DNA from: Bacilli bacterium
GTDB lineage: Bacteria > Bacillota_I > Bacilli_A > RFN20 > CAG-826
Assembly (NCBI GenBank): GCA_017540455.1
Contig: JAFYAZ010000026.1
Span: 1-53,635, forward strand
Length of the DNA: 53,635 bases
Direction of reading: 5' to 3'
This document shows positions 5,566 through 22,858 of this stretch, piece after piece (within the stretch, counting starts at the first letter, position 1; every line of letters begins with the position of its first letter). The position numbers and the translations under genes are program-made. The notes under the pieces are model-generated. The model worked only from the letters and a program-made list of their open reading frames with translations, ran no database searches and had not been told where the DNA came from.

Positions 5566-6567
5566 ATGAAAGTTCTTTTGTATTTTGAAGGGCAAGAAGC
5601 CATCAAAACGAGCGGCATCGGCCGTGCTTTAAGCCATCAAATCAGAGCTCTTGAAAGCCAGGGCATCGAATATACCCTTAACCCAAAGGATGATTTCGAT
5701 ATCGCCCATATCAATACCCTCTGGGCCAAAAGCGGTGCCGTCTTGAGAAAATGCAAGAAAAAGGGTATCCCAGTCATCGTTCATGGCCATTCAACCTTTG
5801 AGGATTTCAGAAAATCCTTTAAGGCCTGGCAGCTCGTCGCACCTTTTTATAATTCGCGCATCAGGCGCATGTACTCACGCGCGGACCTTGTTATTACGCC
5901 AACCCCATATTCCAAAGGTCTTATCGAAGGATATGGCTTCGTTAAAAAAGTTATAGATATCTCTAATGGAATCGATCTTCAGGAATATGCTGAAAATCTC
6001 GATGCCCAGAAAGCTTTCAGAGAGAAGTTTGGCATTAAAGAAGGCGAGAAATTCGTCATGGGTGTCGGCTTCCCGTTCGAAAGAAAAGGAATCCAGGACT
6101 TCTTTGAAGTCGCTAGATCATTCCCTGATGTTAAATTCATCTGGTTTGGAGCTCTTCAGAAGATTCTGACCAACCATAAAGTCAAAGTCTGGGTTAAGAA
6201 CCGTCCAGCTAACGCCATCATGGCCGGATACTGCAAAGGCGACCTAATTCATGGCGCATATCAGCAGGCGACATGTTTATTCTTCCCATCATTAGAAGAG
6301 ACTGAAGGCATTGTCGTTTTAGAGGCTTTAGCCAGCCATTGCCCTCTTGTTGTGCGTAATATTGGCGTTTATGAACCCTGGCTCAAAGACGGGGTGAACG
6401 CTCACATCGAAAAAGATAACGAAGGCTTCGTCAAAACCATCGACTCTTTGCTCAAAAACGGTGAGAACAAAGCTATCCTCGATGAAGGCTATAAAGTGGT
6501 TGAGGCGAGAACCCTCGAGATCGTTGGAGGCAAATTAAAAGAGGCTTACGAGAGCCTCCTTAAATAG
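5566..6567 (+). CDS. GT4-family glycosyltransferase, CpoA-like, probable glycolipid synthesis
   Basis: A 333-residue GT-B fold enzyme. The start MKVLLYFEGQEAIKTSGIGRAL and the segments FDIAHINTLW, VIVHGHSTFEDFRKSF, ADLVITPTPYSKGLI and ISNGIDLQEY resemble the streptococcal CpoA-type family that adds a sugar to glucosyl-diacylglycerol at the membrane face. The EX7E nucleotide-sugar motif is present (LEETEGIVVLEALA). There is no signal peptide or membrane helix, as expected for a peripheral membrane enzyme. Sugar donor and acceptor cannot be fixed from sequence. It runs head-on into a GT2 gene whose stop is the adjacent base, with no terminator between. Confidence 0.82.
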   Translation: MKVLLYFEGQEAIKTSGIGRALSHQIRALESQGIEYTLNPKDDFDIAHINTLWAKSGAVLRKCKKKGIPVIVHGHSTFEDFRKSFKAWQLVAPFYNSRIRRMYSRADLVITPTPYSKGLIEGYGFVKKVIDISNGIDLQEYAENLDAQKAFREKFGIKEGEKFVMGVGFPFERKGIQDFFEVARSFPDVKFIWFGALQKILTNHKVKVWVKNRPANAIMAGYCKGDLIHGAYQQATCLFFPSLEETEGIVVLEALASHCPLVVRNIGVYEPWLKDGVNAHIEKDNEGFVKTIDSLLKNGENKAILDEGYKVVEARTLEIVGGKLKEAYESLLK

Positions 6568-22034: not shown

Positions 22035-22050
22035 TTTCTTAAAAAATAGA

Positions 22051-22078
22051 AGAGTCACAAATTTGTGGCTCTTTTTTT
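22051..22078 (+). terminator. Intrinsic terminator after efp-yneF
   Basis: AGAGTCACAAA pairs with TTTGTGGCTCT (one T.G pair), then seven or more T. Confidence 0.92.
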
Positions 22079-22086
22079 AACTTTTT

Positions 22087-22115
22087 CTGAAAAATCCATT
22101 TTTCTTCTCTATATA
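22087..22115 (+). promoter_or_regulatory. Promoter of a candidate non-coding RNA
   Basis: CTGAAA (22087-22092), 17-bp spacer, TATATA (22110-22115). Predicted start near 22121-22122. Spacing and flanks match the promoter at 7859-7887. Confidence 0.6.
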
Positions 22116-22120
22116 GAAAG

Positions 22121-22375
22121 TGGAGAGGGATTCGAGTCAGCTTTTCTCGGCCGAGTATCGTTGCCGTTTGGCGGCGACAAAGCGTCTCGATGAATATTCC
22201 CTGTAATAGCTAATCACTATCGCAGTATCCGCTTGCAAGCGGTCTGGGCTTAAGAGACCTCCTAGCTCTTGAGCTTGATTACCGCGTTGCCTCTTCTTGT
22301 TCTTGTTATCGAGCGTACTCTTTAAAGGGATGTGCCCTGAGATGTCGAAACAAGAGAGAAGAGGTGCGTGGACCA
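22121..22375 (+). ncRNA. Candidate structured non-coding RNA, family unknown
   Basis: No convincing protein is encoded in the roughly 365 bases between yneF and 22400. The plus strand folds into paired modules. Module 1: AGGGA (22126) with TCCCT (22198), TCGAG (22132) with CTCGA (22186), GCTTT (22140) with AAAGC (22179), and GTTGCCG (22160) with CGGCGAC (22172). Module 2: CCGCTTGCAAGCGG near 22229. Module 3: GCTTAAGAG (22248) with CTCTTGAGC (22266), loop ACCTCCTAG. Module 4: CCTCTTCT (22290) with AGAAGAGG (22357), and CTTGTT with AACAAG. Two stems contain T.G pairs that would be C.A mismatches on the other strand, so the plus strand is the RNA. I found no RNase P, SRP or tmRNA hallmark. No terminator is seen; the 3' end is approximate. 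Confidence 0.6.
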
Positions 22376-22382
22376 TATCTTC

Positions 22383-22392
22383 TTGGTATAAT
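22383..22392 (+). promoter_or_regulatory. Extended -10 promoter of the small membrane protein gene
   Basis: TTGG then TATAAT (22387-22392), so TGn precedes a perfect hexamer. Seven bases separate it from ATG 22400. Confidence 0.75.
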
Positions 22393-22399
22393 TTCATTC

Positions 22400-22858
22400 A
22401 TGAAATACAACCCTTGGAGAACTTCGCAATCATATAGCTTCTATCTAGTTAGCGTTTTGTATATCGCTAGCTTGGTGGTTGTGTTTTTGTTAGATCTTCT
22501 TACCAGCACCCCGATTCTTTGGGCATACGTAGTGGTATCTACGCTAGGGGAGCTGTACTTTTTGGTTATGTTCTTCGCCGACTGCCTTACCTATTGGAAA
22601 GGACACTGTCTCATCATCACAGACCAAGAACTAACGTTCTACGACGAAATAAAAAAGGAGAAGGTCAAAGTATCAATCGATAGCCTTCTGGAATTCAAAT
22701 ATGAGAACAGAGGAAAGATCTATTTCGTTTATAAAAAACATGGCAGAAATGAACATTCCTGTATAGCTCAAGTATTCACAAAAAAAGAAAGAGCCTTCTT
22801 AGATTCAATTATCGCGACCATTTACGAAAGAGACGCTAAGGTCAACCTTCATAACTAA
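22400..22858 (+). CDS. Small membrane protein with C-terminal PH-like cytosolic part, function unknown
   Basis: 152 residues from ATG 22400. Two transmembrane helices (about 14-36 and 40-64) are followed by a soluble beta-rich region containing HCLIITDQELTFYDEIKKEKVKVSIDSLLEFKYENRGKIYF, which reads like a bacterial PH or YdbT-type domain; that assignment is tentative. No Shine-Dalgarno is present, and TATAAT ends seven bases before the start, so the mRNA should be leaderless. It lies directly after the candidate RNA. Confidence 0.7.
   Translation: MKYNPWRTSQSYSFYLVSVLYIASLVVVFLLDLLTSTPILWAYVVVSTLGELYFLVMFFADCLTYWKGHCLIITDQELTFYDEIKKEKVKVSIDSLLEFKYENRGKIYFVYKKHGRNEHSCIAQVFTKKERAFLDSIIATIYERDAKVNLHN

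Follow-up and report, generated by a model that had tools for sequence, protein, structure and literature searches.

The locus between yneF and the next gene in a Bacilli bacterium raises the question of whether it encodes an RNA and, if so, how this RNA is related to its neighbors. The window, i.e., the whole stretch of DNA that was analyzed, is 53,635 nucleotides long, the host genome of contig C47 has 1.16 Mb (92% complete), and the genus sample consisted of 37 genomes. The gene order at the locus is rpmG, a metallo-beta-lactamase-fold gene, efp (a putative identity, with the name taken from the original prediction), yneF (UPF0154), a terminator, the RNA, mem, and a convergent plsY. We use mem as a label for the gene of a 152-aa protein located at 22400-22858, and the yneF–mem gap spans positions 22087-22399. 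The relatives of the locus in public records come from uncultured Erysipelotrichaceae/Bacilli MAGs, among them isolate RUG13880 and MAGs obtained from a sheep reticulum and from horse faeces, and the bacteria of this group are uncultured inhabitants of the gut and rumen.

Promoter, fold and ends of the RNA

The features of the region, all on the plus strand, are as follows.

22048..22075, +, intrinsic terminator of the efp-yneF transcription unit (terminator scan)
22087..22115, +, promoter-like element of the RNA: nnGAAA, 17 nt, TATATA (sequence; recurrence in 8 loci)
22121..22371, +, structured RNA (5′ end placed from the promoter, 3′ end set at the end of P8)
22128..22200, +, P2a/b/c, long-range stem around the three-way junction that holds P3 and P4 (compensatory changes in P2b, P3 and P4)
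22146-22155, +, P3 hairpin (compensatory changes)
22158-22177, +, P4 hairpin (compensatory changes)
22201..22225, +, P5 hairpin, near-invariant core (alignment conservation)
22229..22242, +, P6 hairpin CCGCUUGCAAGCGG (invariant in the close group)
22246..22276, +, P7 hairpin with the loop ACCUCCUAG at 22257-22265 (loop invariant in the close group)
22282..22371, +, P8 long hairpin (16-18 bp helix kept in the divergent locus L027, compensatory changes)
22384..22392, +, extended -10 (TGGTATAAT) of mem, 7 nt before the ATG (TATAAT kept in 7/7 loci)
22400..22858, +, mem, 152-aa protein; two transmembrane helices and, from a low-confidence model, a PH-like domain (predictions)

The original prediction was a structured RNA belonging to no named family, and the fold, the conservation of its pairing and the lack of a match in Rfam all agree with it. 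The plus strand of 22110-22385 folds with -100.1 kcal/mol and a z score of -4.10, a value for which none of 200 shuffled sequences was as good, while the minus strand of the same region has a folding z of -2.84. In sister species that do not have the RNA, the equivalent gaps gave z scores from +0.3 to -3.1, most of them near 0. Two of these gaps after yneF, those of L035 and L037 (z of -3.1 and -2.3), might hold other small RNAs. The RNA, about 250 nt long, is present in one copy per carrier genome. Its four helical modules as first described are real, but the number of helices is larger, namely P2 with its three-way junction and P3 to P8. The minimum-energy fold also has a stem that closes the ends (22120s with 22370s), which was dropped because it is not conserved.

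Upstream of the RNA, the terminator of yneF at 22048-22075 and the promoter CTGAAA-17-TATATA are both as had been described, with CTGAAA at 22087-22092 followed by 17 nt and TATATA at 22110-22115. Although this promoter-like element fails a scan with the strict sigma-70 consensus, a TATAT(A/G) box and a GAAA element about 17 nt upstream of it are common to 8/8 RNA loci. From this conserved element we infer a 5′ end near 22121. At the other end, the scan detected no intrinsic terminator in the stretch from the RNA to mem, as had also been noticed before; since there is no terminator and P8 includes a helix of 16-18 bp, processing of the 3′ end is plausible.

Conservation and covariation

Close homologues of the RNA, with 81-99% DNA identity, were found in six other genomes of the genus, all of them at the same place, and, in all, 7 other species of the genus have a relative of the RNA at this position. 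In the alignment of the close sequences, 91.8% of the cells are paired in the proposed structure versus 38-51% in slid versions of it. Covariance analysis of these homologous gaps beside yneF yielded 10 double-sided pair changes, compared to 5.7 in shuffles (2/500 as high) and 0-2 in slid controls, and the covariation score of the proposed structure was reached by no shuffle; six close sequences are few and the shuffles ignore relatedness, so that these statistics are supportive rather than conclusive alone. MAFFT puts the 5′ strands of P7 and P8, which are variable, at wrong positions; a hand-corrected comparison was made helix by helix with 7 sequences, including L027. Its 74 pairs comprise 14 compensatory, 10 one-sided and 47 invariant ones, a count that was put together by hand to match the structure and is biased in its favor, the shuffled and slid alignment test being the controlled one. 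The same comparison contains 25 G-U and 4 A-C cells. This excess of G-U pairs over A-C mismatches identifies the plus strand as the RNA, as the T.G pairs in two of the stems had suggested from the beginning.

A divergent homologue, L027 in genome G009, consists of yneF, a gap of about 450 nt and a relative of mem at 51% identity. Three elements are retained in this gap, namely the TATAT box, the P3 hairpin with its palindrome (CUUAGCUAAG in place of CUCGGCCGAG) and P8, in which 16 pairs remain with compensatory changes. Between P5/P6 and P8 there is an insertion of about 130 nt. A covariance model built from the close sequences alone recognized P8 of L027 at the right place and on the right strand with an E value of 0.67 over 151 kb, which becomes about 0.001 after our own rescaling to the L027 gap alone. 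The loop of P3 is palindromic in every homologue, being GGCC in the close group and AGCU in L027. We consider that the existence of a conserved plus-strand structured RNA is well supported.

Some other characteristics of P8 were observed. Its strands (22290-22366) resemble anti-Shine-Dalgarno (CCUCUUCU) and Shine-Dalgarno (AGAAGAGGUG) sequences, and the 3′ strand is the better conserved of the two in L027. A tiny open frame behind the Shine-Dalgarno-like strand and a start-stop overlap with mem were considered and rejected; they are not kept in L027 and are confounded with the promoter sequence.

The RNA and the adjacent membrane-protein gene

The RNA was found in 8/37 genomes of the genus and mem in 7, always preceded by the RNA (7/7); at the eighth RNA locus (G020) the contig ends, and the complete loci are therefore seven. 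The arrangement is constant, with the start of mem 28 nt downstream of the RNA on the same strand. Neither of them was found in the remaining members of the genus. A search of 279 genomes of the order with the full-length covariance model of the RNA matched only the seven close loci, a result that is not strict proof of absence beyond the genus, as the whole-genome filters miss even L027. One weak match of this model, in L040 (17.3 bits), lies upstream of efp/yneF, outside the gap, and was taken as chance. Outside the genus, neither the 273 order genomes nor the 395 class genomes searched yielded a match to a profile of mem, phage and plasmid collections gave no match, and no relative of the mem protein was found in viral contigs. 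In a tree of EF-P the RNA-bearing species form one clade (support 98/95), which suggests that the cassette was probably gained once and kept thereafter. With this single origin, the co-occurrence of RNA and mem counts as one event. The narrow range and the linkage to one membrane-protein gene indicate that this is a lineage-specific accessory RNA in a narrow, cassette-borne family. The housekeeping-type role first suggested for it does not agree with its presence in 8/37 genomes of the genus and nowhere else in the order genomes searched, nor with its traveling with a single membrane-protein gene.

Comparison of the mem protein with Pfam, NCBIfam and PDB sequences produced nothing over a cut-off. 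The modeled structure is of low confidence (mean pLDDT 62.6), and its best matches are PH/PTB-like, none of them at E 0.001. A TATAAT sequence is found 6-7 nt ahead of the start codon of mem in 7/7 loci. In the close group it forms part of TTCTTGGTATAATTTC, in L027 its surroundings are different, and no Shine-Dalgarno sequence precedes the gene in the 7 loci. A -10 box a few nucleotides before the start codon, together with the lack of a Shine-Dalgarno sequence, is the layout of leaderless genes. On these sequence features, mem is probably a leaderless gene with its own promoter and, as this TATAAT is conserved at the start codon, it need not depend on the promoter of the RNA. This argues against a plain riboswitch-type leader. 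Boxes resembling -10 elements are also located a few bases before the starts at 5566 and 9139, suggesting that there are other leaderless genes in this genome.

We tentatively favor, at somewhat less than an even chance, that the RNA is a stand-alone non-coding RNA with its own promoter and that the adjoining membrane protein is its partner or its target, along the general lines of OLE and OapA. Transcription of the RNA would start at about 22121 from this promoter, and its 3′ end would result from processing near P8 or from inefficient read-through, as there is no intrinsic terminator. The mem gene would be expressed separately from its leaderless promoter, and the stable RNA would act with or on the protein, loosely like OLE RNA with OapA. 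Such a scheme would account for the linkage, for the lack of a shared leader logic, and for the fact that the RNA evolves slowly. The commonest immediate downstream neighbor of OLE RNA encodes a membrane protein that binds OLE (PMC12265935). The likeness is that of a structured RNA of Gram-positive bacteria with a small membrane protein encoded immediately downstream; here the RNA gene and the adjoining membrane-protein gene are kept together in 7/7 complete loci. However, no match to OLE RNA was found in Rfam, which includes it, and OLE is widespread and about 600 nt long (PMC9723947) whereas the present RNA has 250 nt and is found in one clade. The proteins differ as well, OapA having four predicted transmembrane helices and mem two predicted helices plus the PH-like domain.

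The main rival, nearly as likely, is a cis-acting leader, with the RNA as a long 5′ UTR that controls mem in a riboswitch-like or protein-sensing manner or by transcription through the mem promoter; we would give it about one chance in three. Like riboswitches and other structured leaders, the RNA is a compact and highly conserved fold located immediately before a single gene of the same strand. The strict linkage to mem at a fixed distance with no terminator between them, a core as highly conserved as those of aptamers, and the Shine-Dalgarno-like GAGGUG locked in P8 would all be expected of a leader, and in that case the RNA may sense something about the membrane or the envelope. Nonetheless, the conserved TATAAT of mem and its lack of a Shine-Dalgarno sequence point to a probable leaderless promoter downstream of the RNA that would bypass leader control. 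Furthermore, neither a terminator/antiterminator nor any other expression platform was recognized, no consistent start codon is found behind the Shine-Dalgarno-like strand, and Rfam gave no match.

An unlikely alternative is that the RNA acts in trans as a base-pairing small RNA whose C-rich P7 loop (ACCUCCUAG) binds distant mRNAs at their Shine-Dalgarno regions. In 16S rRNA, the anti-Shine-Dalgarno core is ACCUCCU, and the C-rich-loop small RNAs of Firmicutes bind Shine-Dalgarno sites. The RNA has a hairpin loop with ACCUCC, the match extends to the whole ACCUCCU core, and the loop is invariant in the 7 close sequences. But L027 has not retained this loop as such, the fold is larger and has multiple helices, and the RNA has no Rho-independent terminator, which is present in most RNAs of this kind. 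Judging from its sequence, the loop could pair with Shine-Dalgarno sequences or, instead, with GGAG at the 5′ end of the RNA itself.

Returning to the stand-alone RNA, a more specific version of it is that the RNA and the two-helix PH-like protein form a second, independent RNA–membrane-protein complex analogous to OLE/OapA, possibly involving the self-pairing of RNA loops. Self-pairing is suggested by the palindrome in the P3 loop of every homologue, as dimers of the RNA would need. Such a complex is a long shot. If the RNA does work with the membrane protein, it would be the second membrane-associated bacterial RNA beside OLE, far smaller and simpler.

Remaining alternatives and known RNA families

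The possibility that the region has no RNA function and consists of chance hairpins or a degenerate gene would fit its confinement to one clade of the genus, but it is very improbable. The covariation is above that of the controls, and the RNA is more conserved than the neighboring coding gene: in the close species the apical and 3′ part of P8 is 93-100% identical to that of the window and the mem coding sequence 70-87%. In addition, the homologues differ by indels of 1-2 nt that no reading frame would keep.

No family of Rfam 15 matches the RNA at the gathering score, and even at an E value of 10 the only matches are chance ones around the upstream terminator. This result is in line with the initial comparison, in which the RNA could not be matched by hallmark sequences to RNase P RNA, SRP RNA, tmRNA or 6S RNA, none of whose models match here. 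The first three were located elsewhere: this genome carries type B RNase P RNA on other contigs and SRP RNA on another contig, and tmRNA is found at other loci in five RNA-bearing sisters (G001, G008, G009, G019 and G023). ARAGORN finds no tmRNA in the window, and none was found in this incomplete assembly. The 6S model has no match at the RNA locus. The fold is multi-branched with no conserved closing stem, and 6S RNA is a long hairpin with a central bubble and closed ends. The size and complexity of the RNA are those of a divergent copy of one of these four housekeeping RNAs, a reading that can nearly be dismissed in view of the lack of Rfam matches other than by chance, the location of all but 6S elsewhere in its own or sister genomes, the restriction to 8/37 genomes, and the absence of an end-to-end closing stem like that of 6S. 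As a separate observation, 6S RNA was undetected in the window genome and in 11/12 other members of the genus, with one weak match in G012; in this genus it may be very divergent or lost.

This is a new, narrow RNA family, new in relation to Rfam, and not a new kind of system. Surveys of microbiomes have yielded many candidate structured RNAs that are lineage-specific (PMC8040213). By their description, those candidates resemble the present RNA in their narrow range and in having been found by covariation (PMC8040213). The constant membrane-protein neighbor makes this RNA more testable than most of the survey candidates.
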